64,000 bases of DNA from Pseudoflavonifractor sp. Marseille-P3106 (GTDB lineage: Bacteria; Bacillota; Clostridia; Oscillospirales; Oscillospiraceae), in the NCBI GenBank assembly GCA_900169975.1, contig LT827122.1:62001-126000 (forward strand), read 5' to 3'. The notes under the pieces were generated by a model. It ran no database searches. It saw only the letters and a program-made list of their open reading frames with translations, and was not told the origin of the DNA. Positions 22,525 to 40,010 of the stretch are shown here, piece by piece; within the stretch, counting starts at the first letter, position 1; each line of letters begins with the position of its first letter. A program made the translations under genes and the position numbers.

Positions 22525-22755
22525 TCAGCCCGGAAGCTGCCGGCCGGTGTGGTCGATGGTGTAGGGCTTGGGGAGAATAAGCTGAGAGATGGGCACAAAG
22601 GTGTATCCCTGCTGAAGGAGAGCCTCCAAAATGGCGGGCAGCGCCTCCGGGGTATGGATGGCGGCATTGTGAAAGAGCACGATCGACCCAGGCTGCACCT
22701 TGGAGGTGACCCGCTGGGTGATCTCCGAAGCGGGGAGCTCCTTCCAGTCCAGAGA
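22525..22755 (-). pseudogene. Polysaccharide deacetylase, C-terminal fragment
   Basis: Seventy-six residues plus stop, beginning at the junction with the inserted element. DSLDWKELPASEITQRV, VQPGSIVLFHNAAIHTPEA and GYTFVPISQLI are the C-terminal part of PdaA/PdaB-type polysaccharide deacetylases. The N-terminal part lies 16.7 kb away at 39486-40010 on the same strand. Joining 22755 to 39486 gives an unbroken frame reading QWDVD-SLDWK across the joint, exactly the conserved family sequence. The fragment has no start of its own apart from an ATG inside the element, and is presumably dead. Confidence 0.9.
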
Positions 22756-22760
22756 ATCAC

Positions 22761-22787
22761 GTTCCCATATAGGTTCAAGTTGTTGAG
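22761..22787. repeat. Left imperfect terminal inverted repeat
   Basis: Reading inward from the left boundary, TTCCCATATAGGTTCAAG then TTGTTGAG matches, at about 20 of 26 positions, the right end read inward (ATCCCAAACAGATTCAAG then CAGTTGGAG). The fully shared blocks are TCCCA, TTCAAG and GTTG. Confidence 0.6.
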
Positions 22788-22796
22788 AAGAAATCA

Positions 22797-23150
22797 TTAT
22801 TTCTCTTTAGGGTAATATTTGCGTCCACGTTTTTCCCCCATAGGCTGGTCTCCGGCCTGGACTAGCCGCTTCAAGATATGATGGGCCTGGGGCAAATTGA
22901 TATGGAGTAATTCAGCGACGTCGGATCTGGTAACAGATCTTTGCTGTTTGCCAGCTTAAGAACCAACTCCAAATAGCGCACTTGATCGATATCTGTCTGG
23001 CGGACACAGGCTATATCCCGCTCATTCTGCCTATACATCTTTGAGCTCAGCAGGTATTGACGGCCCCTTCCATTTCCATATAGTAGTCGTTGACCTCCTC
23101 CATGCTTGGGCAAAAGAAAGACTGGGATTGTGCTTGATCCAAGGGTTCAT
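22797..23150 (-). pseudogene. Winged-helix protein remnant
   Basis: A decayed gene whose pieces lie in successive frames: MNPWIKHNPSLSFAQA, then MEEVNDYYMEMEGAVNTC, then SSKMYRQNERDIACVRQTD with DQVRYLELVLKLANS, and finally VTRSDVAELLHINLPQAHH followed by GEKRGRKYYPKEK before the stop. The last piece is a winged-helix DNA-binding motif. At least three frame changes separate the parts, so no full protein can be made. The parent family is not recognised. Its stop lies ten bases inside the left terminal repeat. Confidence 0.6.
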
Positions 23151-23157
23151 TTAATAA

Positions 23158-24303
23158 TCAGTGTTTTCTGTTTTTTCCGTAAAAGACCGCGCCCATCACG
23201 GCTGCAACAGGAACACTCAAAATCACGGCTGCGGTACTGCACAGACCCTGCGCAAGCTCCACGGCCAGAAAATCCGAACTCAGCAGCTGATGGAACTGAA
23301 TCCCATAAGAGCAAAATACCATCATAGTGGCCAGCGCGCCGCCCGTAAAGGCAAAAATCAGCGTGTTGCTCATAGTTCCAATCATATCCTGTCCAAGATT
23401 CATGCCGCTGCGGAACAGCATTCCGGGGGTCGGAGCTTTGGCTGCGATGGCGACCTCCCGCAGGGCGGACAGGATCGACACGGCGACGTCCATCACGGCG
23501 CCTACGGAGGAGATCATGATCCCGGCAAACAACAGGGTGCGAATATCCAGGCCGGTGCCTTGGACGATCAACAGCAAACCCTCCGCTTCATCGGTCTGAA
23601 AGCCGGTCAGATGGAATTGAGAGGAAGCGACAGCGAACAGCACGCATGCTGCCAATTCGCCAAGCAGAGTCGCTCCGATTCCCAACAGGCATTGCTTGGT
23701 GGGACCATGCAGTAAAACCAGTGTAACCGCTGTGGTAAGCAGCGCCGTAACAAGCCCCATCACAATGGCGGAGTGTCCGTTATACAGTGCTGGAAGAAGC
23801 ACACGCAGGATAAAGAGCAGGGAAAACAGAATGGCAAGGCATGCATCTGCGCCCTTGCGCTTTCCGATTACAATCATGCACAGGATAAAGCAAACGATCA
23901 ACCCCGCAATGGCGCCGCTCCGGTCATAGTTATAGACAGTATAGTACGGCGCGGCATTTTCCGGAACATCTGCACAAACGATAATCTTTGTACCCTCTTC
24001 CGTCAAAACATTGTGTGTCTCAGTCAGATAATTTGTCAGATAAACTTCTTCGCCGTCGGCCAGGCGAACCAACAGTTCCTGAGCGCCCAATTGCTGCCCG
24101 GTGCCGAGGGAACTATCCTCTAATTCCTCTGACAGGATTTCCAGCACTTCGGCCCGAACATAGTGCAGCGTATCGGTTTCAAATCTATGATACGAGTTTA
24201 ATCCCACTGGGCAGAACCACATTAGCAACATGGACGCCAGCACGGCCAGCTCCACCAGGAATTTCATTCGTTTTTGTTTCTTAATTTCTTCCATATACAG
24301 CAT
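23158..24303 (-). CDS. YibE/F-like membrane protein
   Basis: 381 residues (an in-frame ATG at 24294 is an alternative start). One N-terminal membrane segment is followed by an extracellular domain of ~110 residues (ending DVPENAAPYYTVYNYDRSG) and then about seven membrane segments to the C-terminus. Blocks GLDIRTLLFAGIMISSVGAVMDVAVS and GMNLGQDMIGTMSNTLIFAF are characteristic of the YibE/F family, whose function is not established. The gene is intact, in contrast to most of its neighbours in the insertion. Confidence 0.88.
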   Translation of the reverse strand: MLYMEEIKKQKRMKFLVELAVLASMLLMWFCPVGLNSYHRFETDTLHYVRAEVLEILSEELEDSSLGTGQQLGAQELLVRLADGEEVYLTNYLTETHNVLTEEGTKIIVCADVPENAAPYYTVYNYDRSGAIAGLIVCFILCMIVIGKRKGADACLAILFSLLFILRVLLPALYNGHSAIVMGLVTALLTTAVTLVLLHGPTKQCLLGIGATLLGELAACVLFAVASSQFHLTGFQTDEAEGLLLIVQGTGLDIRTLLFAGIMISSVGAVMDVAVSILSALREVAIAAKAPTPGMLFRSGMNLGQDMIGTMSNTLIFAFTGGALATMMVFCSYGIQFHQLLSSDFLAVELAQGLCSTAAVILSVPVAAVMGAVFYGKNRKH

Positions 24304-24311
24304 CCCACAAA

Positions 24312-24352
24312 CGGGAGGCGGCGAAATTCTGCCGCCTCCCGTTTTCCGTTTT
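24312..24352. terminator. Hairpin between SLH protein and YibE/F gene
   Basis: Perfect 11-bp stem CGGGAGGCGGC / GCCGCCTCCCG with an eight-base loop. On the minus strand it is followed by TTTGTGG, on the plus strand by TTTTCCGTTTTT. It lies between the giant gene's stop and the YibE/F start. Confidence 0.65.
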
Positions 24353-24409
24353 TGCTTCCCAGCGGAAATCCCGTCGGATTGTTGTTGATTTGTGGATTAC
24401 ACGACAAGT

Positions 24410-27400
24410 TCAAATATCCGTCTGATCGGCACAAAACCGCATCAAAATGGCCGCCAGCTGGGCACGGGTAGATATATCAGCCGGAGAGAGGGTGGTTGCA
24501 GAGGTTCCGCTGACAATGCCATGCTCCACAGCCCAGGCCATGGCGGTTGCGGCATAACCGGAAACTTCACCCTGATCCTGGAAGGAATCCAAAGCGTAGC
24601 TGCTCTCGGGGCTTCCGGCATAACGCCACAGCATGGTCACCAGCTGTTCCCGCGTAATGGGATCATTCGGCCCAAATGTTCCGTTTCCATATCCGCCGAC
24701 AATTCCGTTGGCGGAGGCCCAGGCCACAGCGTCCGTATAGTACTGGTCCGCCGCCACATCGATGAACCCCGCCACACCGGAAACGGCCGGGGGATTTTCC
24801 ATGCGATACAGGATGGTGACAATCATGCCCCGGGTGGTCGTGATATCAGGTCCAAAAGCGGCGTTACTGATCCCATTCATCAGACCCGCGCTGTGAACAT
24901 AGTCGACAGCGGCCTTGTACCATGCGTTCTCCGCCACATCCATGAAGGGATTCTCAGCAGTTTCCTCCACCGCCCTGAACACCGCTTTAATGGTGTGCGC
25001 GGCACGGACATTCTCAAAGGTGTACCGGGACACAGCGCCTACGCTCTTGCCGTCCACCAAAACGTCCTTCAGTTCGTACCCGCTGCCGGCTTTCACTGTG
25101 AAGGTCTGGTCACCGCCCCTCTCCACGCGGATGGATCCGTTGGGAGAAATGGTTCCCCCCTGACCGGCCTCAGCCCTGATGGTATACTGACTGGAGTTGC
25201 TGGTACTGCCGGAGGAAGAGCCGCCGGAGGTGCCGCCGCTGGAGGCGGTTTCAACCTGCACCACGGTCATGGTGCCGGAGACCTCACAGGCCGCCAGCAG
25301 CAGGGGGATGCCGGTTTTGCTGTCGGCAGCGGAGACAAAGCACAGGCCCTCAGGGGACACGTCGCCCTGGATGTCAGCGTCAAACTCCCGGGAGTTGATG
25401 TAGTTGACAAATTTGGCGTTGGCGGGGACGGTAATGTCGTAAACCATCACGCCGCCGATGCGCTCCAGAGCGATGAAGGCGTAGGTCTTGTTCTTGACTG
25501 TACCGGTGACAACGCTCTCGGGCTCAGGCCCCTTTTTGCCGGATCGGTTATCCAGCTTGATTTTGTCGTTGGAGCAGTTGAAGTAGTCTCCAAGCTTTTC
25601 AGCGGTAATCTCCTCGAAGTCGCTGCCGCTGTCGTAAGTCCAGATCAGGCCGTTCGCAGTTACCTCGTAGATGGAAAAGGAGCGACCACCAAAGACATAT
25701 GCCTTGTCGGTATCCAGACCATCCCACTTGGTGGCGTCGAACCAGACGACCTCCTCGCTCAGGGTCACATTTCCGGTGGGAGAGGTCTTTCCCGCGTATT
25801 CATTGTCCATGCCAGCCCAATCAGCGCGGCTGTCGCCCTCGTTGGCGGTGAGCAGGTAGTCCTTGCCGCCGATGGTGACAACGGAAATGCCGTCGGGCAT
25901 CTTGATACCATAGATATTTTTGTAATTGGAAAGCTCGACGGTACCATTTTTCTGGAGATCGACCTTGGTTTTGCTGTAGTCCTGCAAGCCCAGAGGGTAT
26001 ACGCCGGTAAACTCGCCCTTCTCAATATTCAGCACGGCGATGGCGTTGGCCTCCTGAAGGGCGACATAGGCGGTCGTGCCGGAGACAGCAATATATTCCG
26101 GCTCAAAGTCAGTGGAGGGGTTGGAATTTTTCTGAATCAACACACCAGACTTGGTCAGTTCCTCGCGCTGAGCGTCAAGGTGGTCGAAAGTCACGGTATT
26201 GACTGTTCCGCCGATTTTGACGATGGACACGGAGCCCTTGGGGTCAGTACCGCTCGTACCTTTCCGGGGTTCGCCTTCGTCAGCGGTGAGGATGGTGTCG
26301 TTGTCCGCAAAGGTCACCATGTCAGGCTGCACACCCACAGTATAGGTGCCGTTCAACTCCAAGGAGCCGTCAGTCTTGCAGGTGAAAATGGCCACGACAC
26401 CGTTGGCGGCGTAATTCTCGGCCTGAATGGCCACGGCCAGCTTGCTTCCATCGGGGGAGATGGCCACGGAGGTCATGTCGCCATAGGTGAAGTCTGCGAT
26501 GTCAAAGGTTTCCTTGCTCAGGTCATACTCGGTACCGGACAGAGCCACCACTTTGTTGCCGTCCAAGCTATCGTTCAGGTTCACGGCGATCAGCTTGCCC
26601 TTGACGCCGCTGACAGCGTAGGCATAGCCGTTGACGGGATTGTATTGCACGATCTCCAGGCTGCCGCCGTCGGCGGCCATGGCGCCGGAGTTGTAGCGGC
26701 CTGCCAGCTCCAGCTTCAGGGAGCCGGTGGCGTCATAGTAGCCCTTCACGCGGGTGTCGGAGGTCTTAACGGGGGTGTAGACGGGCGTCTCAGGCTCGGC
26801 AGCGACCAGGCTACCGTATTCGCCCTTGCTGTTGTGGGGAGCGTATTGGGCCAGGGTATCCGCTGTGGCGGTCATCTTGCCCTTCTCCCAGACGACGATG
26901 CGGAAGTCTTCATTCGTGTCGGTATCGGCGTGGTCTACCCGCTGCAGGGTCTTCTGCTTGGAGACCTTGATCGCATCAACATTCTCGTCCGCAGTCACAG
27001 AATCCAGTACGGTCCCGCCCTTTTTCAGCGTGATAGTGTAATTCTTGTTGTTGATCTGCCAGTCGCAGGTCTGATCTGCCTCGGGCAGGTTGTAGGTCTG
27101 ATATTCGGCGGTGGTCCCGGCGCTGGCGCCCATGATCAGGTAGGAGCTCTTGGCAGGGATGGACTTGCCTCCGGTCAGATCCAGGCTTTTATCTCCATAG
27201 GACAAGGTGTAGCCGTCCAGAGAGACCGCCTCGTCAGTGGGGTTGTAAAGCTCAATAAAGGAGTTGGCGATGGGGGTCTCGCCCTTGCCGCCGTCGCCGT
27301 AGACCTGGTCGATGAGCAGCTTGGCGGGTTCCTCGGTCTGCTGGGCGGTCTTGTTGATGGTGAAGGTGTCCAGCACGGACATGTCATTCACATTGTAGGT

Positions 27401-30400
27401 GGTGATGGTGAAGGTGTTTTCAGAGACCGTCGCCTTGGAGATGCTGGGCTTCTTACCCTGGTCCCTCACCGCTGCCCAGTTGTAATTGTAGCCGGCGTGC
27501 AGGTCGTAATACTTGGAGCCGGAGGCGGAGTTTGCGGTGACATACAGGATGCCGCTGGGGGCGGTCACTGCGGTAGGCGCTTTCTCCTCCCCGCTGGCGT
27601 AGGTGTAATTTTCATTGGCGGACACAGCTCCGCCGTCCATCATGTAGGTGCGGGTATACACGTGGTCGTGCCCCTGAAGCACCACGTCGATGTCCAGCTC
27701 TTTAAATACCTGGGGCAGCCCATTTCGGCGCTGGATGATGTCGCCGTCCTCCATATGAGACGCGGTGGAATATATGGAGTGATGGAAGGTGACGATCTTC
27801 CACAGCGGCTCCGCGCCGTTGTTGGCAGCCTGATACGCCCGGATGGCGGAACTCATGAACTCCTTATGCTCGGCGGTGCTCATATTGTTGGAGTTCAGGG
27901 ACAGGAACAGCACGCCGTTATAGGAATACCAGTAGTCCCCGCCGGCGGGGGTGTCCCCCTGGGACGATGACTCATTGGGCAGGTTAAAGTGCTCCTGATA
28001 GTTAATCCCGTTGCTGTCGTGGTTGCCGATATTGGTGGCCAGTGTCAAGGAGCGCAGGGCCTCTGGCTTCAGGAAACTGGCATACTGGGTCTCGTTGTCG
28101 AACCTATCCACCTGATCGCCGGCGCTGATCAGGAAGTCGGCGCCGCCCAGTTCCTTCACCGCCTGGTTCAAAGAGGTCGTCCAGCCGGTGGTATCGCTGC
28201 TCACATTACCGCTGGAACCGATCTGGGGGTCACCGGCAAAGAGAAAGCTGACGCTGCCCCGATCAGAACTGCCGGTGGTAAAGGTATAGACTTCGGACCA
28301 GCCGTCACTGTTGCCCACCCGGTAGGCGTACTTGGTGTCGGCGGTCAGTCCGGTGATCACGGCCTGGTTGGAGTAGTAGCCCGCCAGGCAGGAGGCTTTG
28401 CTGGAGGAGGCAAAGGACGTGTGCTGGGCAGGGAATGCTCCGTTGGTCATATCGGAGGCCAGGGCGAGCTGCACCTCGCCGGTCTTTACAGAGTCGGTGT
28501 ACCAACTCAGGCGGCGCTGCGTCTCGTCGGCGCCGATGGTCAGCGCAACGTTCTTTACATCCGCCTCTCCGGGGGCGGGACCCGCCGCGGGCGCGGTGAC
28601 CGTCTGGTCCACATTTTTCAGCACCGGGGTCTTGGCCGTATCGTTCCAGTCAAAGACCTCATTGAAGTCAAAGCCCAGACCGGCGTAGAAGTCTTTGGAG
28701 GCCATCTGCTCCGCCGTCATATCCCCGCCCTGACCGTCGGAGGCGGTGCCGCCGGAAACGGTCTTCCCATTGACCGTTACTGCGGGATTGACATAGTTAT
28801 TTGTGAAGGTGCCCGTGCCGGCGTTGTAGCACAGGCGGTAGCCCTCACCCACACCGGCGGTCTGCACTGTGCCGGAGAGAATTACATTTCCGGCCGCATT
28901 CGGCTGATACTTCATCCAGCCGCCCAGCAGGCCCGCCACATTGCCGTTTCCGGCGGCGGTAGTGGCATTGGCGGCAATAACCGTCATATTTTTGACAATA
29001 TTATTGGCTGTCGGCATTTTCAGCAGGCCACCGATGCCGCCGGCCTCGATGCCGGTGGAAGTCACAGCGCCCTCGGCGATACAGTTGCGCACTGCTCGGG
29101 TAGCGTCGTTTTTATCGGAATAGCCGGCGATACCGCCTACATTATTGACGCCCTGCACCGTCACATTGGCATAGCAGGCCTCGATGATGCCGTCGTTAAA
29201 GCCTGCGATACCGCCCACCTGGTTTCCGATGCCCACCACCATCGCGCCTGCGGCGCAGCGGCGGATTACACCGCCGTTTGAAAGGCTGCCCGCCACGGCG
29301 CCGGTAATGCCGCCGCCATAGATCTTACCGGTGATCGTGATATCCTCCACCGTACCCGCGCAGCTGCCCACCAGGGCCGCCGTATAATCGGCGGACGTGC
29401 GGATATCCACATCACTAAGCTTCAGGTCGTGAATGCTGCCGCCGGAGAGCAGTGTGGAAAACAGGGCGTAGCTGCCGCTCGCAGGGGCAGCGGCCAGATT
29501 GGATACCGTGTGTCCCGCGCCGTCAAACTCACCGCCGAAGGTGGTGACACTGACAGCCTTTGTGCCGGTGAAATCCAGGTCGCCGTTCAGACGGTACTTC
29601 TCCAAAGGGGCCTTGTTGATTTCACCCAAGTCAGCTGTAGTCTTGATGAGATAATAGCCATCGCTGTCCCGCTCCAGCGCGGTGCCGTCAGCGCCAGGCG
29701 CCTTTACACTTTGATCCACGCCCTTCAGCACCGGGGTCTTGGCCACATCGTCCCAGTTAAAGACCGTATCGAAGTCAAAGCCCAGACCGTCGTAGAAGTC
29801 TCTGGAGGCCAGCTGCTCCGCCGTCGCGTCCGCGCCGATGTTGTTATCATGGCTGCCGCCGGTCTCCGGCATGCCGTTGATGGTCACTGCGGGATTGACG
29901 TAATTCTGTGATTTGTTGTCAGGCTGATAACCGATGCGGTGTGCTGTGCACTGGGCGGTGGCAACAATGGAGCCTGACTGGATCACGTTGCCGGTATAGG
30001 GCTGTTGTCCGTTGATCCAGGCGCCCAGCAGGCCGGTCACATTTCCGCTGCTAACCGCGCCAGTACCAGTGGCGTTGATGCTCATGTCGCGGACAATGCA
30101 GTTGGCGACGCCGATCTTCAGCAGTCCTCCGATGCCGCCGGGCTCCATCGCACCCTGAACGGAACCGGTGACAATGCAGTTCCTGATCTTGGCATTTTTG
30201 GTTACGTCGGAGACTGCACGTCCCACCAGGCCTGCCGCCATGTTCCCGCCCAGGACCCGGGCGTTCACATAGCAGCTGTCGATCAGGGAATTGTCGGTAC
30301 ATTCTCCAACCAGTCCGCCCATCCGTTCTGTTCCGCTGACGCTGACGCCGGCGGAGGAGCGCAGGAGCTGACCGCCGTTGTCCAGATAGCCCACGATACC

Positions 30401-31663
30401 GCCAACCGGTTTTGCGCCGGTGAGACTGCCGGTAACAGTAACATCTTCAACCCTGCCCGCGCAGCTGCCTACCAGGGCGGCAGCGCTGCCGGAGGCGGTA
30501 ATGTCCACGTCCTCCATCTTCAGATCGTGAATGCTGCCGGTGCTGTCGAGCGTGGTAAACAGGGCATAGCTGCCGCCGGACTCCACGCTCAGCCCCGAGA
30601 TCGTGTGGTCATCGCCGTCAAAATCGCCGCTGAACACGGAGACGGTGGAAATTCCCGAGCCGTTCAGATCGAGGTCGCGGCTCAACCGATAGTTTCCATT
30701 GGGCAGCTTATTGATCTCGTTAAAATCAGCCGCCTCCTCGATCAGATAATAGCCATCGGTATCCTGAGTGAGATCCACACCGGCAGAGGTGCTGTCGGTG
30801 TCGATGACCAGAAGCGTGTTGCCAACTGGACGCTCTTTGCCGTCCGAGGGGACATTTTTCACCTCCAGGGCGTAGGTGTCGGGGTTTTTCACCACAGCCG
30901 CGGAGGAGCCGCCGCCGTCCAGATTCAGCGCCTCTACGGCACCCAGATCCTTCATATACTGTGCAAGCTCCTCAAAAGTCAATCCGGCGGAAATATTGGA
31001 GCGGCCATCGGCCACCACCAGCAAGATGGAGCCGTCCTCTTTGATGCCCACGGCCGTGCGCGGATGGCGGGCATCCTCCACATTCTGGACCTGCCCATCC
31101 TTCACCAGCCACGGGCCGCCGCCCACAGCCTGATCCAGACTGTCCGCTACAGTGTCGAATATCTCCTTGTCCCCGATGACGGCCTCACCGTCACTTTTGA
31201 TCCCAAAGAAATAGGAGCGGTTTCTGTTGTCTCCTTCATAGTAGGGTGAAAGCAGCTCCCCATCCTTAATGGTTACGCTCTCAGGCTGGATCAGCGTGGC
31301 GTCATTGATATTAAAAAAGTCCGCGTTGACCGCCGCCAACACATTCTTGCCGTTGCGCTGGGCGGCAAGTGCCTGGCCGGAGGTGGTCTGCGTCAGGCCT
31401 TCCTTCAGGGGCGTCTCATCGTTGGGAACGCCGGTGACAATCTTCAGAGAATCGTCACTGCCGTCCACTGTGACCACAAAAGTCCTGACATCCTCTTTAT
31501 CTGTATTCTGGATAATTTCTTCGCCGTAAGAAAGCCCATCAAAGAGTTCCTTGGACGAGAGGTCACTCTCCCGCGAGGACCCGGGGCTTGCCGCGAGTGT
31601 TGCCGGCATCATGCCCAGAAGCAGGACAAACACCAGCAGTAAGCTTGTGATTCGTTTTCTCAT
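24410..31663 (-). CDS. Giant SLH-anchored multidomain surface phosphoesterase
   Basis: 2417 residues with a signal peptide (1-25) behind AAAGGAGAA. In order: a phosphodiester glycosidase (NAGPA) domain, about 105-285, with NADFFNIND and LNLDGGGSSAA; two related GLUG-like repeat blocks, about 297-645 and 664-1020, each starting DGYYLI and ending in DD/ND-x-A-K-TPVLK; a purple-acid-phosphatase-like FnIII plus calcineurin-type phosphoesterase, about 1034-1420, with AGDPQIGSS, SAGDQVDRF, IGNHDSNG, TFHHSIYST and LQGHDHVYTR covering all metal-ligand motifs; a lamin-tail domain, about 1448-1590; a choice-of-anchor-I-like propeller, about 1641-2135; a bacterial repeat domain; and three SLH domains from 2238 to the end. 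It would sit on the cell wall and attack phosphodiester or sugar-phosphate polymers. The substrate is unknown. Confidence 0.9.
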   Translation of the reverse strand: MRKRITSLLLVFVLLLGMMPATLAASPGSSRESDLSSKELFDGLSYGEEIIQNTDKEDVRTFVVTVDGSDDSLKIVTGVPNDETPLKEGLTQTTSGQALAAQRNGKNVLAAVNADFFNINDATLIQPESVTIKDGELLSPYYEGDNRNRSYFFGIKSDGEAVIGDKEIFDTVADSLDQAVGGGPWLVKDGQVQNVEDARHPRTAVGIKEDGSILLVVADGRSNISAGLTFEELAQYMKDLGAVEALNLDGGGSSAAVVKNPDTYALEVKNVPSDGKERPVGNTLLVIDTDSTSAGVDLTQDTDGYYLIEEAADFNEINKLPNGNYRLSRDLDLNGSGISTVSVFSGDFDGDDHTISGLSVESGGSYALFTTLDSTGSIHDLKMEDVDITASGSAAALVGSCAGRVEDVTVTGSLTGAKPVGGIVGYLDNGGQLLRSSAGVSVSGTERMGGLVGECTDNSLIDSCYVNARVLGGNMAAGLVGRAVSDVTKNAKIRNCIVTGSVQGAMEPGGIGGLLKIGVANCIVRDMSINATGTGAVSSGNVTGLLGAWINGQQPYTGNVIQSGSIVATAQCTAHRIGYQPDNKSQNYVNPAVTINGMPETGGSHDNNIGADATAEQLASRDFYDGLGFDFDTVFNWDDVAKTPVLKGVDQSVKAPGADGTALERDSDGYYLIKTTADLGEINKAPLEKYRLNGDLDFTGTKAVSVTTFGGEFDGAGHTVSNLAAAPASGSYALFSTLLSGGSIHDLKLSDVDIRTSADYTAALVGSCAGTVEDITITGKIYGGGITGAVAGSLSNGGVIRRCAAGAMVVGIGNQVGGIAGFNDGIIEACYANVTVQGVNNVGGIAGYSDKNDATRAVRNCIAEGAVTSTGIEAGGIGGLLKMPTANNIVKNMTVIAANATTAAGNGNVAGLLGGWMKYQPNAAGNVILSGTVQTAGVGEGYRLCYNAGTGTFTNNYVNPAVTVNGKTVSGGTASDGQGGDMTAEQMASKDFYAGLGFDFNEVFDWNDTAKTPVLKNVDQTVTAPAAGPAPGEADVKNVALTIGADETQRRLSWYTDSVKTGEVQLALASDMTNGAFPAQHTSFASSSKASCLAGYYSNQAVITGLTADTKYAYRVGNSDGWSEVYTFTTGSSDRGSVSFLFAGDPQIGSSGNVSSDTTGWTTSLNQAVKELGGADFLISAGDQVDRFDNETQYASFLKPEALRSLTLATNIGNHDSNGINYQEHFNLPNESSSQGDTPAGGDYWYSYNGVLFLSLNSNNMSTAEHKEFMSSAIRAYQAANNGAEPLWKIVTFHHSIYSTASHMEDGDIIQRRNGLPQVFKELDIDVVLQGHDHVYTRTYMMDGGAVSANENYTYASGEEKAPTAVTAPSGILYVTANSASGSKYYDLHAGYNYNWAAVRDQGKKPSISKATVSENTFTITTYNVNDMSVLDTFTINKTAQQTEEPAKLLIDQVYGDGGKGETPIANSFIELYNPTDEAVSLDGYTLSYGDKSLDLTGGKSIPAKSSYLIMGASAGTTAEYQTYNLPEADQTCDWQINNKNYTITLKKGGTVLDSVTADENVDAIKVSKQKTLQRVDHADTDTNEDFRIVVWEKGKMTATADTLAQYAPHNSKGEYGSLVAAEPETPVYTPVKTSDTRVKGYYDATGSLKLELAGRYNSGAMAADGGSLEIVQYNPVNGYAYAVSGVKGKLIAVNLNDSLDGNKVVALSGTEYDLSKETFDIADFTYGDMTSVAISPDGSKLAVAIQAENYAANGVVAIFTCKTDGSLELNGTYTVGVQPDMVTFADNDTILTADEGEPRKGTSGTDPKGSVSIVKIGGTVNTVTFDHLDAQREELTKSGVLIQKNSNPSTDFEPEYIAVSGTTAYVALQEANAIAVLNIEKGEFTGVYPLGLQDYSKTKVDLQKNGTVELSNYKNIYGIKMPDGISVVTIGGKDYLLTANEGDSRADWAGMDNEYAGKTSPTGNVTLSEEVVWFDATKWDGLDTDKAYVFGGRSFSIYEVTANGLIWTYDSGSDFEEITAEKLGDYFNCSNDKIKLDNRSGKKGPEPESVVTGTVKNKTYAFIALERIGGVMVYDITVPANAKFVNYINSREFDADIQGDVSPEGLCFVSAADSKTGIPLLLAACEVSGTMTVVQVETASSGGTSGGSSSGSTSNSSQYTIRAEAGQGGTISPNGSIRVERGGDQTFTVKAGSGYELKDVLVDGKSVGAVSRYTFENVRAAHTIKAVFRAVEETAENPFMDVAENAWYKAAVDYVHSAGLMNGISNAAFGPDITTTRGMIVTILYRMENPPAVSGVAGFIDVAADQYYTDAVAWASANGIVGGYGNGTFGPNDPITREQLVTMLWRYAGSPESSYALDSFQDQGEVSGYAATAMAWAVEHGIVSGTSATTLSPADISTRAQLAAILMRFCADQTDI

Positions 31664-32260: not shown

Positions 32261-32266
32261 CGCTTA

Positions 32267-32334: not shown

Positions 32335-33390
32335 CTACTCCGAAAACCCCCGGCTAAGCCTTAACCTCATTAAGATAGCCACCCCAACGAAACCGCTTCC
32401 GGGAGAGAATCTCGGAGGCGGTTTCGTAAACACATACATCAGAAAAGAGGACACGGCAAAAGCGGCGTTAATGTGATAGACATGGGTGCCTTCCGGCTGG
32501 GTAAAAATGGTGTGGAGACGAAGCAGGGAAGCAAAATTATAGAACGTCATTCTGGAAAATATCTCCTGCTTGATGAATGGGCGCTTTTTGGCATGAAAGT
32601 GTGTCTGCGCAAGGGTGTATTTCAAATCCCGGAAAGATGTCTCGATACCCCAGCGTTTGTGGTAAAGCTCACGGAGCAGCAGAGGTGGGGACTGGTCTGC
32701 AGGAAGGTTGGCGATTACGGTTTCGTACATGCTCTCTTTGACCGCAAATCTGACCACACGTAAGGAGATCGGATACAACGCATCGCTTGCGTCCCTGATA
32801 TAGTCGAAATGAACCTCGCTGGGGGTCCAGCGGTACTTCTGAGGCTCCCGGCGGATACGGTTTGTGAGGCGTTTGGACAGGGAATAACTGAAAACCGCGT
32901 CAAATTCCTGTGCATCAGGCAGCCCAAGCCCTGAAAGTATGCCCTGCTTGTCTTTTACGCGAATCAGGTATTTCCGCTCTATGTGCGCTATGTTGTTATA
33001 CGTCTCATAGCCGCAGTCCGCTATGAGAATGACCGGTTCTGTGAGTTCCGCCCGGTCCACTGGTTCCACAAGCGCCTGAGATTCGTGCTCCACCCGGCCG
33101 TCTTGTATGACGACGTCCAGATAGAGTTGGCTTTCCAAGTCGTACAGAGCGTTCAAATGCAGCAGTTTGTATCCGCGTCCGTCCTTGGTGCCGTTAAAGT
33201 AGGTTGCCTCGTCGTGAATGTTGCTTGGAATCTGCACATGGGAACCGTCCACCGCCAGCAGTGTGTACCCGTTCCACCTTCGTATGGAACGGTTCCGCTG
33301 CGCTCCAAGACACAAAAGGGCACAAAACACAGGTACCTCTGTCGCAGCTATACGAAATCTGTTAGGATGTGTTTGAGAAAACAGGCACAC
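32335..33390 (-). pseudogene. IS4-family transposase, probably N-truncated
   Basis: 351 residues open. The DDE-type catalytic parts are present: LLAVDGSHV (first Asp, about 48), VILIADCGYETYNN (second Asp), and the YHKRWGIETSFRDLKY block of the IS4 family with the Glu. Related transposases are about 400-450 residues, and the first ~35 residues here (MCLFSQTHPN... to GAQRN) do not look like the family's N-terminus, so the 5' end was probably lost. The C-terminal tail PRFSPGSGFVGVAILMR resembles full-length relatives. I could not find both ends of the IS. Confidence 0.72.
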
Positions 33391-33593
33391 TACAGAACAC
33401 GTTGGGGTGAGTGGGTACAGCTATCTATCCGCTGAACCAAATACTTATGTGTGCCGGCCGCTCTTCCAAGCACAAATGAGTAGGACATTGAACCCTGTAA
33501 AATTATCTTTGGAGAGATAGACTTCTTCAATCTTTCAGTGAGCGGCCAGTCCCTGTCTGTTCCCTCAAGTCTTTAATATTGAGGGGATGTGTT

Positions 33594-34068
33594 ATGCTCA
33601 AAATCGTTTATCCAATCTGTTGCGGAATGGATGTACACAAATCGTTCCTGGTAGCCTGTATCGCCTCCACCAACGAGCAAGGCGTTACCACCTACCAGAG
33701 CAAGCGGTTCTTCACCTTCACCGGGGATCTTCGGCGGTGCGCTGCTTGGCTTGGAGAAAACGACCGCAAGGATGTGTGTATGGAGTCCACTGGGAAGTAT
33801 TGGGTTCTCATTTACAACATCCTGGAGGCCCCCCGCACCATCGTCCTTGCTCACCCCAAGTACGTCAAAGCCATCCGGGGGAAGAAAACAGACAAGAAGG
33901 ATGCCAAGTGGATTGCGGACATCTTCAAACACGATTTGGTCTCCGGCAGTTTTATCCTTCCTGCGGACATTCGCCAACTTCGGGATCTGATGTGCTATCG
34001 CTGGAAGCTCACCAACTTTACGACCGGGGAGAAGAACCGGGCGCAGAACGTCATCACCGCCAACATTT
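33594..34068 (+). pseudogene. IS110-family transposase, truncated
   Basis: The N-terminal DEDD (RuvC-like) domain of an IS110 transposase: CCGMDVHKSFLVACI (Asp13), VCMESTGKYW (Glu), and KAIRGKKTDKKDAKWIADI (Asp). Start at ATG 33594. Homology ends near residue 155 (EKNRAQNV); the frame then runs on to 34475 only because it is antisense to the next pseudogene. The C-terminal domain with the catalytic Ser is missing, so the element is dead. The break marks a junction with the AAA ATPase fragment. Confidence 0.85.
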
Positions 34069-34104
34069 TAGGCACCACTGTCTATTCCGACGCCGGTCTC
34101 GGTA

Positions 34105-35155
34105 TCTTGGCAGTGGTGATCGGCGGCATCCGCGATATAGATCTTTGGCTGGGCCTTCAGAACCTTGCGGCCTCCCATTTTCACCGGCCAGCTCTGGTAG
34201 ATCAGGTTTGCACTCTCCAGCTAATTTACATAATTTTCTACAGTCGGTCGGGTTACACCGCCCAGCTCCTTAGCGATGGAAGTGAAGGAGACGATCTCCG
34301 AGGAGACGTTGCAGAGATAGAGAAAGCTACGCTCCAGCTCGGTAGCACTCCGGATATTGTAGAGGGCAGGCAGATCCCGCTTGAGTACCTTGTCCACCAC
34401 ATCCTCACGCATGATCTGCTGGGCCATCAGATCATTGGAGGCCACAGAGCCAACTCCGGAAAACCGCCCACCTGAAGGTAGCGGTTAAAGTGATTTTGAA
34501 GCGGCTCCAGTTTCAGCATAACCTTTGTGCGCTCTGTATGAGCCATGCGGGAAAAGGCGGTAGGCCGAATGTCCGGGCCCAACTCGGGAACCTCCACACC
34601 AATGAGTGCGCAGTACTCAAAAAAGAAAGCGTAGGCACAGGTATAACGCTCCACCGGCCTGCTCCGCTCTCCGTACTTCCTTTCATCAGAGCGGGGCTGG
34701 CCGAACCAGTGGCTACGATTCGGGGATCCGGCTGCATATCATAAAGGGTCTTGAGCCATTTATCCCAGTCGCTGGCATATTGAATTTCGTCAAAAAAATA
34801 AAAGGCACCCTGATTGGGCCAGATATTTTCATGGTAACATTCCAGAATGTCATTTAAGCTACTGAGCTTCAGCATGGGATGATCCATAGAAATAAAAGCG
34901 ATGCGCTGTGGGTTAACCCCCCTTTTGAGAAGCGTTTCGATCATCTGGTACTGGATTGTGGTCTTCCCTACCCGCCGAGTGCCGGTAAGCACCACTGTTC
35001 ACCGCAGGTCGGTTTGATCCAGGCGCTTCATCGCCTCATAGTAGGCAAACCGGCGATATGTCTTTGTAAAGCTGGGATGGACCGTTCCGGTGGCCCACCA
35101 GGGATTAAAGGCTTTCAGCACCTTTAGGATTTGTGATTTGCTTGCAATTGCCATA
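34105..35155 (-). pseudogene. AAA ATPase with DUF4143-like tail, broken
   Basis: A gene starting at 35155 behind GGGAGG and reading MAIASKSQILKVLKAFNPWW, then VVLTGTRRVGKTTIQYQMIE (Walker A) and AFYFFDEIQYASDWDKWLK (Walker B). It continues with RYLQVGGFPELAL, REDVVDKVLKRDLPALYNI and LESANLIYQSW. At least two nonsense codons (TGA right before VVLTGT near 35000, TAG before LESAN near 34220) and at least two frameshifts (near 34440 and 34620) interrupt it. The end is cut at IADAA, where the IS110 fragment begins. Intact relatives are orphan ATPases of about 400 residues, some acting as toxin or defence genes; no such role is claimed here. Confidence 0.85.
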
Positions 35156-35202
35156 CTGCTCGCCTCCCTATAGAATTTATGCTTTATTTTCTATTTTTTC
35201 AA

Positions 35203-35230: not shown

Positions 35231-35243
35231 GCGAAAAATAATT

Positions 35244-35286: not shown

Positions 35287-36750
35287 TACGTTCCATATTA
35301 CCTCAGCCCTATCGTCAATCAGGTTTATTTCTTTCACAAATTGGGCTGCCACCATCTTTTTTTCTTCGAAATCCAGCGGGGTAAATTGCACCCGCTGCAA
35401 GTGGATACTCGGCTTTGATTGACGCCTTGCCCGCTCATCTAAGAGGGCTTGCTTCTGCCCTTCCAGCTTCTGAATGGCCCGGTTAACATAGGCCATAGTG
35501 ATATCACTGCTCCCTGTGAGGGCATCAATCAGACGGTTGATCTTCTGGTCGATTTCTGCGAGAGCGCTTGTATACGCCTGGTCTTCGTATGTATCTGCTT
35601 CTATATCCGGACATTCAGCAAGCAGACGCTCCAATTCTGCGGCAACTGATTCCTCCAGGGTCCGAAGATCTACTCGAATCGCCTGCTTACACAGCCCCAA
35701 ATTAGATCGTCCACTGCACACTAAGTAGTACTTGTTCCCATCTTTATTGACCTTTACGCTATACCCACAACAGCCGCATTTTAAAAGGCCTGAAAGCCAC
35801 GTGTGTTTCCCGCTGCCTTTTCTTCCTAGTTGTCTGTTGCCATCCAGCTTATTTTGACACTGAATCCAGACTTTAGAGGAGATAACGCCGCAGTGATTGG
35901 CGATGGAAAGGTGCTGATCTTTTAAGGACTGATATTTCCCAACGCTGCGATCCCGCTTTCCGATAATCATTCCGGCATGGACGCCATCAAACGCTTCAAA
36001 TTTGCTTGCAAACTGGATGCCTTTTGCCTTATAATGCAGATAAATCTCCTCGTCAGCCATGACATAAAGCGGGCTGTGCAAGATGCGGGACAGAGTCACA
36101 TTATCCCAGGTGGCTCGTTTAGGGGCGGGAATTCCGTCTGCGTTGAGCATATGGGCTACACTGCCCAGAGACGCCTCTGCTGAAACATACGCATCAAAGA
36201 TGCGCTTCACAACCTCCATGTTCTCGTTTGGAATCAAAGCGGGAGAGAGTTTTCCCATCGCGTCTGGTATGCGGCCAATGGAAAAGCCGTAGGGTGCAGG
36301 CCCGCCCGGCCAAGAACCGAGCTTCACCCGCTGATAGTAGTTGTCCCGTACCCGCTCGGCGGTAGTCTCCCGCTCCAGCTGGGCAAAGACCATGATAATA
36401 CTGAGCATGGCCCGGCCCATTGGAGTGGAGGTATCGAACCGCTCATTAACAGAGACGAACTCTACCCCGTGCCTTTGCAGCACCTCCCACAGCCGACTGA
36501 AATCGGCCAGCGAGCGGGAGAAGCGATCCAGGCGGTAGACCACGATTTTCTGAACAATTCCCTTTTCCACATCGGCCATCATCCTCTGGAAATCCGGCCG
36601 ATTGGTATTCTTACCTGAGAAGCCCTTGTCTTGAAAAACCTGAACCTCTCTGCCGACCTCTCGTCTGCACAGGTCAATTTGCCCCTGGATAGAGAGACTG
36701 TCCGCCTTGTCCACGGACTGCCGGGCGTAGATCGCGTCCAAGGCGGACAC
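35284..36750 (-). CDS. Large serine recombinase
   Basis: 488 residues if begun at GTG 36750; TTG 36741 is better spaced (eight bases) from AAAGGAGG and gives MDAIYARQS. The resolvase domain has the catalytic Ser in YARQS, VYRLDRFSRSLADF, and MVFAQLERETTAERV. A Recombinase domain, a zinc ribbon (CGCCGYSVKV with a second Cys pair VCSGRSNLGLC), and a coiled-coil region follow. This is the architecture of TndX/TnpX-type and phage integrases, which join two short att sites. The gene is intact. It lies inside the block, 2.7 kb from the right end, so it need not have inserted the present 16.7 kb unit. Confidence 0.93.
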   Translation of the reverse strand: MSALDAIYARQSVDKADSLSIQGQIDLCRREVGREVQVFQDKGFSGKNTNRPDFQRMMADVEKGIVQKIVVYRLDRFSRSLADFSRLWEVLQRHGVEFVSVNERFDTSTPMGRAMLSIIMVFAQLERETTAERVRDNYYQRVKLGSWPGGPAPYGFSIGRIPDAMGKLSPALIPNENMEVVKRIFDAYVSAEASLGSVAHMLNADGIPAPKRATWDNVTLSRILHSPLYVMADEEIYLHYKAKGIQFASKFEAFDGVHAGMIIGKRDRSVGKYQSLKDQHLSIANHCGVISSKVWIQCQNKLDGNRQLGRKGSGKHTWLSGLLKCGCCGYSVKVNKDGNKYYLVCSGRSNLGLCKQAIRVDLRTLEESVAAELERLLAECPDIEADTYEDQAYTSALAEIDQKINRLIDALTGSSDITMAYVNRAIQKLEGQKQALLDERARRQSKPSIHLQRVQFTPLDFEEKKMVAAQFVKEINLIDDRAEVIWNV

Positions 36751-36774
36751 CTCCTTTCGCTCAATTGGATCAAT

Positions 36775-36933
36775 CTAGCGCCGCAGCTGAGGTGGCTGTA
36801 CCGGGGCTCGAGACAAGCGGGCTGATTCCCCTAAACAGGTTAGTCCACTGATGCAATTCTGATAGAGAGCCCGTAAAACTTCCAGACGGCTCCCTGAGTT
36901 GACTTGCTGTGGATGCATATGTGTGATTCGCAT
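36775..36933 (-). CDS. Small protein upstream of serine recombinase
   Basis: 52 residues starting at ATG 36933 behind GAGGAGGG at good spacing, ending 24 bases before the recombinase start. The sequence begins MRITHMHPQQVNSGSRLEVL and has no domain I recognise. The strong ribosome site and tight spacing suggest it is translated with the recombinase, perhaps as a leader or accessory peptide. Confidence 0.5.
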   Translation of the reverse strand: MRITHMHPQQVNSGSRLEVLRALYQNCISGLTCLGESARLSRAPVQPPQLRR

Positions 36934-37037
36934 AATATGTATCCCTCCTCTCTTCAAACTATCTTGACCTATATATAATAGATACATAAAATTTCCATTT
37001 ATTTGTGTCTGTGAATGGGCAGCCCCAGAGCCGCCGC

Positions 37038-37544
37038 CTACGCATCTACGGCAGCAAAATCCTCAGATGATTGGTAAGCGCACAGATCTTCAAGGCAGAT
37101 AAACAGCGCTCGCACCTGGTGGAGCTTTTTGCTGCTCTTCTGGCTCTTGTCCATATTGAACAGGCGGTTGCGGCGAAGTTCCGAGGTGATGGCCTTGACC
37201 GTGATGCCGGAGTCTCTGAAGTGCCTCTGCATTGGTTGGAGCAGATACTCCGGTCTTAAGCAGAGGCAACCTTTATACTCCACTGCCGCTTCACCGGTTT
37301 GAAACTTTCTCCCGGTTTTTTGGGTAATGACAATCCCGCAGCGGGATAGATACAAATCAGCTAGACACCCGGAAAAGCGATTGGTGTCGCTGTGCTCTCG
37401 CTCACGGGCGAGAAGCTCCTTTTGACGATGAATCGCTTGGAAGACTGCATCTTGCATCATACCCTTTATACCTATGCGAACTTTTTTGCCAAATGAGGGA
37501 AAGCTGTCGGCAAAAAATCTAAGAAAAATATTCATTTCCACCAT
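37038..37544 (-). pseudogene. Primase/helicase-like protein, C-terminal fragment
   Basis: 168 residues in a different frame from the preceding fragment, overlapping it by 13 bases. The text runs on naturally from it: NIFLRFFADSFPSFGKKVRIG, FQAIHRQKELLAREREH, AAVEYKGCLCLRPEYLLQPM and GITVKAITSELRRNRLF, as in the C-terminal parts of DUF927-type ATPases of mobile elements. A frameshift near 37540 is the simplest explanation. Low-GC codon use sets it apart from the chromosome. Confidence 0.5.
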
Positions 37545-38215
37545 AAAAGACTCGTAATCTCACGCAGACGCTCCTCTTGAACAGAAGTGGTTCCCTTGGC
37601 ATCCCTCAACTTCTCCATTCCTTGGCGAAATTTAGTTTCGACCTCGTAATAGTGGGCAGATATCCAGCGCAGGAATCGATAAATGATGGTTGGCCATGCC
37701 AAGGGTTGCTGTTGGAGCGCGGTCAATTGCCTAGAAGGAAGCGGTCGGTCAAGCTGAAAAATGAGGCAGCGCACCAGTGTGGAGAATCCCTCTGGCAAAT
37801 ACTCACCAGTGAACACGATGCCGCAAGCTAGCGAATCGGTCGCGCCAAATCGCCCCCACCCTCGAACAGCGCTATTGCCTACCAAGCGAATGATTTGATT
37901 TGCCTTTTCATCCCGCGTTCGCTTTGCGGTGCGCGATGCGCCGGGATATAGGTCGTCAACCAGCCGGGTACAGTCTTTCCAGGGGCGCAGATCCTCAAAA
38001 ATGGCGGTGGAGGAGGAGAGCAAAGAGATTCCATCTGGCTGGGAGCGAGGAGCATCCCGATTGAAAATTGCGGTGAACCACTCCGCCAAAGCGGTCTTCC
38101 TGGTTTGTGACGGGCCAACCAAATAGCTGATAAAGCGCCGTTCCCATCCGGCATCTTGAAGGGGCTGTTGTAAAAAACTTAAATGGCAGCAGTATCCGTT
38201 GAGAGGTCGCGGCAA
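37532..38215 (-). pseudogene. DUF927/primase-helicase-like ATPase fragment
   Basis: The recognisable part begins at DAGWERRFISYLVGPSQTRK, a P-loop-like segment with TRKTALAEW in place of a classical GKT. It continues with FEDLRPWKDCTRLVDDLYPG and GIVFTGEYLPEGFSTLVRC, matching the ATPase core of DUF927-type helicases carried by plasmids and integrative elements. No start codon with a ribosome site is present, and the N-terminal portion is missing or out of frame. It is probably one gene with the fragments on both sides. Confidence 0.55.
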
Positions 38216-38418
38216 CGGTAATCGAGCGTGGTGAAGTCCAGACAGTAGAGCTGCTTAAGTATTATGGGCTGACAGGAGATCCGTGTTCCTCCCGTCAGGA
38301 TCACTTCGAACTGCACCAGGAGATTTGCCGGACTCAGGCTGTCTCCTGGACGGGCAACATCCGGCAAATGGGGAATATAGTTCACCAAGGAACCGTTGAA
38401 AGGATTTGTGTTTTTCAT
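38179..38418 (-). pseudogene. Short N-terminal piece, possibly of the same ATPase
   Basis: 79 residues with a good GGAGG site seven bases before ATG 38418. It begins MKNTNPFNGSLVNYIPHLPD and ends DLSTDTAAI. It may be the N-terminus of the primase/helicase-like gene that continues in another frame from about 38190, or a separate small gene overlapping it. No domain is recognised. Confidence 0.4.
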
Positions 38419-38532
38419 AGTTAGACCTCCGAATTTATTTAGGAGGCGCATGGGTCAACCTAAGCTCTTGCCTCCCATGTCCCTAGGCTACCAGGTCTCA
38501 CCATGCAGGTATAGAACGAAAACTAGGAAAAA

Positions 38533-38596
38533 GCAAAGAATCACCGCATTCCTATCGTGGAACGCGGTGATCCTTTGCTCATTCGCGGAGAAAAAG
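38533..38596. repeat. Inverted repeat copy 2 with terminator hairpin
   Basis: Reverse complement begins CTTTTTCTCCGCGAATGAGC, as copy 1. Its stem pairs GCAAAGGATCACCGCG with CGCGGTGAT/CTTTGC-like bases carrying changes that stay pairable as G-U. It directly follows the stop of the unknown gene at 38603. Confidence 0.85.
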
Positions 38597-38602
38597 GAGG
38601 AT

Positions 38603-39421
38603 TTACAGCATGGACTTGCAAGCGTTTTGAATGGAATCTTTAGCGGTGCGTATTATTCCCCGCATGATTCGAACTTTTTCTTTTGTCCATTCTTTTTTCT
38701 CTGTGATGACATCCCAAATCGGATATTGATTCTCGATAAACCACTCAAAGTCGTCCTGTGCATCCTTAAACATAAGGAGCGGCTCATCTAAGATTTGGTT
38801 CTTTATTGTGTGAGAAAGCACGGAGCATGCCTCATATCTGCGGCACAGAGCAAGGTAGGAGGGTCGCCTATCCGTGGATGCGAGAATTCTAGTGCGCATA
38901 AGGATATCATGATAGGTGGTTAAAAACAAGACAGGGCGTGTACGCGGCGGCAGATACCTTAGAAGGCGCAGCTTTAGTGCATTTATATACTTGGCCTGGA
39001 ATAGGCCACTTTTGAAAAAGATCTTGTGCGCAACATCGTTTGCGCGATCTCGGTTCCCATCAAGCAAAAATTGATTGTGCGCAAAGGTTGCTGCACTATA
39101 GATTCCCTCTACCATCAAATGGTTTTCAAAAGTTTGAAAATCGAGAGCGGCCTGAATCTGATCCAGTGGAGTTACTGCATGAGCCCGCACGGAGAGCCAC
39201 TCTATGGAATATTGATTGTATTTTTCGCAGAAGTCACTATAGCTGACATTCTTACTGTCAGCAAACATGAAAAAGTTCTTGGCTTTTCTTAGGCCTTGTT
39301 TGAAAAAAGATGAAGCAAGTATGTAAATAGATCCATTTACACGTAAGAATACCGGCGATGGGACCGAACTCCGTCGCCGTATTCTTGTGGTCACTCGTAC
39401 CGCCGTTTCACCTATACCCAT
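38603..39421 (-). CDS. Unknown protein at the right end of the insertion
   Basis: 272 residues from ATG 39421; the frame continues upstream through the terminal repeat into the deacetylase gene, where homology makes no sense. The protein is basic and largely helical, with blocks FFMFADSKNVSYSDFCEKYN, TFAHNQFLLDGNRDRANDV, LLRYLPPRTRPVLFLTTYHD and WDVITEKKEWTKEKVRIMRG. I recognise no domain. No clear ribosome site precedes ATG 39421, so the start is uncertain. Being next to the right end it could take part in movement of the element, but there is no sequence proof. Confidence 0.55.
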   Translation of the reverse strand: MGIGETAVRVTTRIRRRSSVPSPVFLRVNGSIYILASSFFKQGLRKAKNFFMFADSKNVSYSDFCEKYNQYSIEWLSVRAHAVTPLDQIQAALDFQTFENHLMVEGIYSAATFAHNQFLLDGNRDRANDVAHKIFFKSGLFQAKYINALKLRLLRYLPPRTRPVLFLTTYHDILMRTRILASTDRRPSYLALCRRYEACSVLSHTIKNQILDEPLLMFKDAQDDFEWFIENQYPIWDVITEKKEWTKEKVRIMRGIIRTAKDSIQNACKSML

Positions 39422-39456
39422 GTACAAGGCGTTTTTCAGATCTGAAATGTGATATG

Positions 39457-39485
39457 CTCCAACTGCTTGAATCTGTTTGGGATAC
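39457..39485. repeat. Right imperfect terminal inverted repeat
   Basis: Partner of 22761-22787; see that entry. The sequence just outside, ATCCACATCCC, is deacetylase coding sequence. Confidence 0.6.
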
Positions 39486-40010
39486 ATCCACATCCCATTG
39501 AATGGGCTCCATTCCAATGGAGCGGATCGCGGAAATGACATTGTCATCATACTCTCCATAGGGCGGCCGGATCAGGGTGGGCCGCACCCCGGTGACCGCC
39601 TCCACCTTGTCGTTGCAGGCATTGACGTCGGCGATGATCTCATCCCGGGAAAGCTGAGACATATGGGCATGGGTGTTGGAGTGGTTCATGACCTCATGTC
39701 CGGCATCAGCCAGGGCCTTGACCGATTCCGGATATTTGTCCACCCAGGCGCCCACGACAAAGAATGTGGCTTTGACATTGTATTTTCCCAGAATGTCAAT
39801 GAGCATCTGGGTATCCTCATTCCCCCACGCCGCATCAAAGGAAATAGAGATCATCTTCTGATCCCGCTGAACACAGTAGATGGGAAGCTGTCTGGTGGTG
39901 GCAGCGGCCCCGGCGGCAACGGGGTGGTTTACCGCCAAAAACATGGCGGCCGCCACCAGCAGGCAGACCAGAACGGTCACTCTCTTTCGTTTGAACAGGA
40001 TCATTTTCAT
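39486..40010 (-). pseudogene. Polysaccharide deacetylase, N-terminal part
   Basis: 175 codons up to the insertion, starting at ATG 40010 behind GGAGGG. A membrane anchor or signal (8-30) leads to the NodB domain: ISISFDAAWGNEDTQ (metal-binding Asp and base), ATFFVVGAW, EVMNHSNTHAHMSQLS (His-x3-His ligands) and LIRPPYGEYDD. It resembles sporulation deacetylases of the PdaB type. The frame leaves homology after QWDVD and ends soon after in the element. The C-terminal piece is at 22525-22755; reconstructed length is 251 residues. Loss may affect spore or cell-wall modification unless a paralogue exists. Confidence 0.9.

Follow-up and report, generated by a model that had tools for sequence, protein, structure and literature searches.

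Why does a deacetylase gene of Pseudoflavonifractor sp. Marseille-P3106 (assembly GCA_900169975.1) lie in two halves with more than 16 kb of DNA between them, and is the gene destroyed or only interrupted? The locus was studied in a window of 64,000 nucleotides (contig LT827122.1, positions 62,001 to 126,000 of the forward strand), and positions given without a contig are those of this window; G, C and L numbers are handles for genomes, contigs and loci. The insert is probably one of the elements that intervene in sporulation genes, of the skin, SP-beta or gin type, and would be excised in the sporulating mother cell. The interruption is read as reversible and programmed because similar breaks recur at two fixed sites of the gene, each site is matched by its own clade of recombinases, and the split pieces remain under constraint.

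The two pieces are the halves of one PdaB-like polysaccharide deacetylase encoded on the minus strand (Table 1). TIGR02764 (PdaB) is the best NCBIfam family for each half, and the halves occupy complementary parts of its profile, positions 2-129 (N) and 130-191 (C) of 191. The 200-residue open reading frame (ORF) containing the N half matches Pfam PF01522 (E 9e-38); the 90-residue ORF containing the C half had no match in the Pfam scan. An uninterrupted ORF matching both halves is present in 8 of the 16 genus genomes searched, the window's own being among the 16 (G001, G004, G006-G010 and G013; identity to the N half 79-87%, to the C half 75-92%), and in these relatives the motif QWDVDSLDWK spans the joint (QWNVDSLDWK in G008). 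A mix-up of two paralogues is ruled out, because the halves are complementary in one profile and relatives carry a single gene; the remaining two deacetylase-domain matches of the genome lie on other contigs. A preliminary description of this DNA had likewise placed the N and C termini of a single gene here, rejoined in frame with conserved text across the joint once the insert is removed, and had concluded that the element entered a working gene at a defined base. The complementary profile ranges and the continuous ORFs of relatives bear this out, with a rejoined product of 251 residues (175 + 76), and the outcome that it named as refuting, different paralogues or separate intact genes, did not arise. 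Its label of a sporulation-type enzyme stands in part: PdaB is the best family, though below the curated cut-off, so that a role in sporulation is likely but uncertified.

A GA dinucleotide, as read on the minus strand, is common to both ends of the insert (plus-strand positions 39487-39488 and 22757-22758), from which a length of 16,730 bp follows; the boundaries first proposed, 22756-39485, are equivalent within the ambiguity of the shared dinucleotide. The third base of the final Asp codon of the N half already lies on the element side. Read on the minus strand, the left junction is ...GTG-GA-TGTATCCCAAACAGATTCAAG and the right junction CTTGAACCTATATGGGAACGT-GA-TTCTCTGG. The arms on the element side are imperfect inverted repeats of each other and agree at 14 of 21 positions in the chosen register, a level reached by 1 of 20,000 shuffles. 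Such a layout resembles what a large serine recombinase leaves as left and right attachment sites (attL and attR). As in skin-like elements, the junctions carry attL- and attR-like sites with a shared core and inverted arms, a large serine recombinase is encoded within the element, and removal of the element restores the frame of what appears, from PdaB similarity and a pattern upstream, to be a sporulation gene.

The same gene is broken in many other genomes. The intact orthologue of G008 served as query against 400 genomes of the family, of which 366 match at E <= 1e-12, many at paralogue strength only. The sets for each site were compiled from the matches listed, plus a renewed search of genomes with intermediate scores; the remaining family genomes are without an orthologue or unclassed and stand outside the counts, as do most matches of about 53% identity or less. 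Two break positions recur: site A near codon 62 (SFDAAWG), and site B, that of the window, at codon 175 (QWDVDSLDW). Among the matches listed, 36 genomes have a piece ending or beginning at site B versus 202 intact there (the evidence is one-sided in seven: G093, G146, G202, G261, G329, G387 and G391), and 24 are split at site A versus 210 intact (one-sided in G092 and G383); both sites are split in 9 genomes and either site in 51. This recurrence rules out a single stray insertion. In the doubly split G226 and G163, the three pieces are colinear on a single contig and strand, and in the other seven the pieces lie partly on different contigs or one is absent. Where both ends are on one contig, the interval measures from about 4 kb (G145) to 37 kb (site B of G226). 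GA is present in every printed site-B junction (6 left, 9 right), and a shared dinucleotide in every printed site-A junction (11 left, 10 right); the site-B arms are alike by eye in most junctions, except the right junctions of G301, G058, G084 and G352. Sites A and B lie in the NodB motifs MT1 and MT4, which anchors the attachment sites in catalytic codons.

Some genomes were less easily placed. G379 was counted as intact at site B, as were G053, G330, G300 and G386, which hold extra pieces beside an intact copy; G330 and G379, in which the match starts near site A and no N piece was seen, are in neither site-A set. Breaks at other positions, some at contig ends, occur in G154, G389, G052 and G020, and G017 and G050 are unclassed at site B. 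The extra piece beside the intact copy is a C piece in G053 (L238), G330 (L239) and G300 (L240/L241), preceded by an attR-like sequence in G330; these are perhaps insertions that a duplicated 3ʹ end has healed.

Each site is matched by its own type of recombinase. Eighteen intervals from 16 genomes were available with both ends in hand: all nine at site B encode a recombinase of the window's type (type B, 51-70% identical to that of the window, its own excluded), and all nine at site A encode one of the type found in G015 (type A, 52-72% identical to that of G015, its own excluded), the two types being about 25% identical to each other. In the doubly split G226 and G163, each interval carries its own type, and the intervals of G316 and G264 include a further, shorter recombinase ORF. 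Typing was extended to the whole family by scoring the top three candidates per genome, with type membership set at an identity of at least 50%; the next matches fall to 42% for type B, and lie at 45-48%, with no clean gap, for type A. Type B was found in 32 of the 400 genomes, including 31 of the 36 split at site B versus none of the 202 intact there (Fisher p 5e-34, uncorrected for kinship); in the 32nd, G185, the record L264, apparently of the same genome, has a C piece from codon 175 near the recombinase. Type A was found in 27, comprising 23 of the 24 genomes split at site A versus 2 of the 210 intact there (p 2e-28, likewise uncorrected) and two without a classed orthologue (G101 and G395). 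Additionally, distances between recombinases correlate with those between host genes (type B, r 0.54, n=28; type A, r 0.59, n=25, G050 included), and none of 5000 permutations reached these values. Two further observations concern these enzymes. In G316, the C piece is followed at a distance of about 10 kb, outside the site-A interval, by a second type-A recombinase (G316:C2:170691-172217, L200). Upstream of the type-B recombinase of G011, a minus-strand stretch (L060:9020-9505) resembles the start of the deacetylase by eye (VKVFILKRR...LAAAAMFW), as if the deacetylase promoter and first codons had been copied before the recombinase.

Split copies also continue to be constrained, as measured by the ratio of nonsynonymous to synonymous change (pN/pS) over up to 194 core codons. 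In the window's genus the median is 0.18 for site-A-split copies (3 pairs) versus 0.17 for intact ones (28 pairs), and it remains 0.18 (10 pairs) when G000 and G011 are added to the split copies. Other same-genus pairs split at a common site, with pS below 0.5, gave 0.02 (G226-G103), 0.15 (G399-G194), 0.21 (G264-G221) and 0.46 (G287-G352) at site B, and 0.03 (G383-G327), 0.10 (G350-G053), 0.27 (G316-G194), 0.28 (G257-G383) and 0.29 (G257-G327 and G352-G205) at site A. Recombinase identity is 87% in G226-G103, 84% in G350-G053 and 68% in G399-G194, values consistent with long residence of the element.

Constraint of this kind speaks against an ordinary integrative element, such as an integrative and mobilizable element or a degenerate prophage, which would use a conserved catalytic-motif codon as its attB and inactivate a dispensable gene, with no programmed excision. 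According to predictions described in PMC10083194, the site specificity of most large serine recombinases covers one to three gene clusters, many family genomes have no orthologue-strength match, so that the gene is dispensable in some, and no excision was seen in this analysis, all of which would suit such an element. Yet within the genus the reading frame and the constraint are preserved in split copies as they are in intact ones, nine genomes have two breaks in one gene, and recombinase and gene distances co-vary; an ordinary integrative element is thus an unlikely explanation. Programmed, skin-like excision in the mother cell fits the anatomy, the pairing of site and recombinase, and the constraint better than plain disruption does. 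The preliminary description, which had treated it as a disruption, was right about the insertion itself; recurrence, site-matched recombinases and constraint point to a reversible, programmed interruption.

A link to the mother cell is suggested by the region upstream of the gene. Of 42 upstream regions, 19 contain the pattern NCAT[AG]-N12-17-CATA, which was selected after inspecting the sequences (300 rounds of shuffling gave a mean of 0.54 and a maximum of 3); it is close to the promoter consensus of the mother-cell sigma factors, sigma-E and sigma-K. A table of sporulation mutants in PMC4703394 assigns B. subtilis pdaB (spoVIE) to the sigma-E regulon. Moreover, a second sporulation gene is split in the window genome: on contig C20, SpoIVA_ATPase is matched by two same-strand pieces, 236830-237279 (profile 1-150; L226) and 489491-489769 (profile 145-237; L236), with a serine recombinase adjoining the second (C) piece and inverted att-like stretches, CTTGATAGC/GCTATCAA, at the junctions. 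The pieces are a very large distance apart, 252 kb. Two partial, complementary SpoIVA matches also occur in G220, G179 and G330, some near contig ends. Both the promoter pattern and the split spoIVA argue against excision at random or under stress in growing cells, in which reconstitution of the gene would be incidental and not developmental. There is a precedent for such behaviour in C. botulinum, whose yin element is seen in excised form at every time point (PMC10747680), and one for the opposite in C. difficile, where skin excision is restricted to the mother cell (PMC5025042); random or stress-induced excision seems very improbable here.

Candidate accessory factors are encoded beside the recombinases. 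Type-B recombinases are directly preceded by a tiny ORF in which an HxHP...C pattern is conserved; it was found in 19 genomes (E < 1e-4), six of which built the profile, and among the 19, G228 has no HxHP in the printed stretch and the ORF of G163 was not placed beside a recombinase. It is also present at 25 of 50 named loci (E < 0.01), some from the same genomes, and was not found at L290, L305, L301, L306 or L289. Type-A recombinases have a different tiny conserved ORF upstream (ending LLRALIQAHS or similar), with matches among up to 8 genomes. Both are candidate recombination directionality factors by analogy with CD1234 of C. difficile skin (PMC5025042).

We infer that excision occurs and is limited to sporulation, that the tiny ORF encodes a directionality factor, and that the deacetylase has a role in spore formation like that of PdaB. 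In the sporulating mother cell, the serine recombinase of the element would recombine the two GA-centred junction sites, probably assisted by the tiny protein encoded just upstream. The element would leave as a circle and a continuous PdaB-like deacetylase gene would be restored, while the spore, as the next generation, would keep the element. The mother cell is terminal and the spore retains the element, so that the element would pay little price for residing in the gene.

Breaks at site B extend beyond the family set. Relatives in named genomes were found with a profile of 11 type-B recombinases, and a break was scored loosely, when the fetched flanks held a deacetylase match with its end at codon 172-200 or its start at codon 150-176. 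By this criterion, a site-B-broken piece is present at 34 of the 40 best loci and 18 of the next 40 (some weak, e.g., L306 and L309), some of the loci belonging to genomes among the 400. Caproicibacter fermentans EA1 is split at site B, and Oscillibacter ruminantium GH1, broken at site B and showing the right junction of site A, has a middle piece beside a type-A recombinase (56%) and a C piece beside a type-B-like one (39-42%), its N piece being absent from the fetched stretch. Other loci with a break come from records titled Intestinimonas, Lawsonibacter, Evtepia, Butyricicoccus, Anaerotignum and Lachnospiraceae. Among IMG/VR viral contigs, a site-B-broken piece was found at 3 of 79 loci, where the recombinases are at most 48% identical.

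The cultured records also bear on the idea that the breaks arise from assembly or binning. Many of the family genomes are metagenome-assembled, and in G339 contig C230 ends and C276 begins at the site-B junction (L196, L197). Such an artefact is nevertheless scarcely credible as a general explanation: both pieces lie on one long contig at site A in G218 (3.2 Mb, 1 contig) and at site B in G301 (2 contigs), the right site-A junction lies within the single contig of G092 (4.3 Mb; N piece not found), breaks occur in the named records of C. fermentans EA1 and O. ruminantium GH1, and the two junctions of the window fall within one 247 kb contig.

Several observations weigh against programmed excision, beyond the number of metagenome-assembled genomes. 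Type-B recombinase was not found in five genomes split at site B (G093, G237, G281, G329 and G339), and type A is present in two that are intact at site A (G050 and G376). In G061 (contig C6), the two pieces are out of order, the C piece being upstream, and the type-B recombinase is found about 47 kb past the N piece. A simple insertion does not explain this arrangement, and with the C piece first, simple excision would fail to rejoin the gene as assembled. The recombinases of the same-genus pair G264-G221 are only 44% identical, which indicates turnover or re-insertion of elements. Across genera the median pN/pS is higher, at 0.35 for seven doubly split genomes (21 pairs), with synonymous change near saturation, and one genome, G281, has a stop within the core codons. 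Insertion sequence (IS) debris within the window element might mean decay. Even the intact orthologue L005, at 209.3 bits, misses the PdaB cut-off (TIGR02764, curated 237.4 bits), and the promoter pattern was a post hoc choice. SpoIVA matches are absent from G138 and G086 (100 and 95% complete) though the deacetylase is present, and the deacetylase gene is absent from many SpoIVA-positive genomes; co-occurrence with SpoIVA is therefore not a clean proof of a sporulation role and was not used as support. A strict site-B attP pattern, built from few genomes, had no match in IMG/VR viral contigs, and neither an excised circle nor a rejoined gene from the same strain was seen. A site-A attP pattern gave three stretches with paired matches 24 bp apart in viral contigs, which are not counted as support.

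The window element itself carries one large serine recombinase among varied cargo (Table 1). The recombinase frame is open and the family's invariant residues are kept; its best NCBIfam match is XisF (NF041201), at 151 bits, below the curated cut-off of 375. In a PHROG scan of five window ORFs, the recombinase alone matched; the 52-residue ORF upstream of it had no Pfam or PHROG match, and the three ORFs nearest the N half had none in Pfam, NCBIfam or PHROG. No phage structural domain was found by the Pfam scan in the YibE/F-like protein, the 2417-residue protein or the transposases. Elsewhere in the window genome, the large-serine-recombinase domain PF07508 is matched at 20 places (L034-L053), with clusters of three at C18:267981-271682 and four at C20:961173-966717.

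Table 1. Features of the interrupted deacetylase locus, in window coordinates
Feature	Position	Strand	Remarks
Deacetylase C-terminal half	22525..22755	-	76 codons + stop; NCBIfam, ORFs of relatives
Element/gene junction (attR)	22736..22779	-	Shared GA at plus 22757-22758; element arm CTTGAACCTATATGGGAACGT
YibE/F-like protein, cargo	23158..24303	-	Pfam
2417-residue multidomain cargo protein	24410..31663	-	NAGPA, purple acid phosphatase N, Metallophos, LTD, choice-of-anchor I, SLH (Pfam)
IS4-type transposase inside element	32335..33390	-	Pfam, NCBIfam
ORF with IS110-type transposase N-terminal domain	33579..34475	+	Pfam
Broken ORFs	34427..35154	-	Beginning looks, by eye, like the ORF that follows the recombinase in the site-A element of relative G015; three stops in one frame
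Large serine recombinase, type B, 488 residues	35284..36750	-	Resolvase, Recombinase and zinc ribbon domains; likely the excising enzyme
52-residue ORF (MRITHMHP...)	36775..36933	-	Directly upstream of recombinase; candidate recombination directionality factor; similar ORFs adjoin other type-B recombinases
Three ORFs, no family	37038..39559	-	37038-37544, 37532-38215, 38603-39559; the last, as listed, starts inside the N half in another frame
Gene/element junction (attL)	39465..39510	-	Shared GA at plus 39487-39488; element arm TGTATCCCAAACAGATTCAAG
Deacetylase N-terminal half	39486..40010	-	175 codons; its 200-residue ORF extends into the element down to 39408; Pfam, NCBIfam, ORFs of relatives
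Promoter-like CATG-N16-CATATAGAT, sigma-E/K-like	40035..40064	-	Upstream of deacetylase gene; pattern counted in 42 upstream regions

Elements of this kind are already known, and in skin (PMC5025042) and gin (PMC5595907) excision was shown. Skin in sigK of B. subtilis and C. difficile (CD1231/CD1234) splits a mother-cell gene, encodes its own serine recombinase, relies on a separate small directionality factor and leaves a rejoined gene (PMC5025042); the window element, with its own serine recombinase and a candidate factor, would be alike in these respects. Here, however, the target is an enzyme and not a sigma factor, one gene offers two alternative and sometimes simultaneous sites, and the candidate directionality factor is encoded directly upstream of the recombinase. 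The gin element in gerE of B. cereus ATCC10987 also has a short core common to both junctions and is free of phage-related genes, as described in PMC5595907, just as no phage structural gene was seen among the window ORFs scanned; it differs in having three serine recombinases and a 9-bp shared sequence, whereas the window element has one recombinase and a 2-bp core within looser similarity. SP-beta in spsM, vfbin in spoVFB and yin in yabG likewise split sporulation genes; the account of them in PMC10747680, which mentions no two-site gene, describes them as prophages or prophage-like. Heterocyst interruption elements (nifD, fdxN/XisF, hupL) are excised on cell differentiation and include XisF, the best NCBIfam match of the window recombinase; several occur per gene in 10 of 87 genes, and nifD of Rivularia sp. 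PCC 7116 is split by four (PMC4874684). They differ in belonging to cyanobacteria and in interrupting nitrogen-fixation and other genes. In literature searches that combined this gene, spoIVA or this family with intervening elements or recombinases, no paper among the titles and abstract openings listed describes this target, subscription papers lying outside this scope. The target, the pairing of two sites within a single spore gene, and the breadth of occurrence look new.

The papers cited here describe programmed excision in endospore formers for only a few genes, in Bacillus and in pathogenic clostridia. With a target that is struck again and again at the same two codons, in dozens of anaerobe genomes and in cultured isolates among them, it becomes possible to test why elements persist in genes of a terminal cell. 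The target also provides two large families of serine recombinases, each matched to its site and accompanied by natural att sites and candidate directionality factors, and it warns against reading "broken" spore genes in gut genomes as loss of sporulation. More broadly, and with some reserve, we lean towards the view that a single spore-enzyme gene across Clostridia behaves as if it had up to two DNA "introns", with two distant recombinase systems that each own one fixed catalytic-motif codon. Doubly split cells would then need two orthogonal excisions in the mother cell, spoIVA would be handled likewise in the genome of the window, and parts of sporulation would be gated by chromosome editing.

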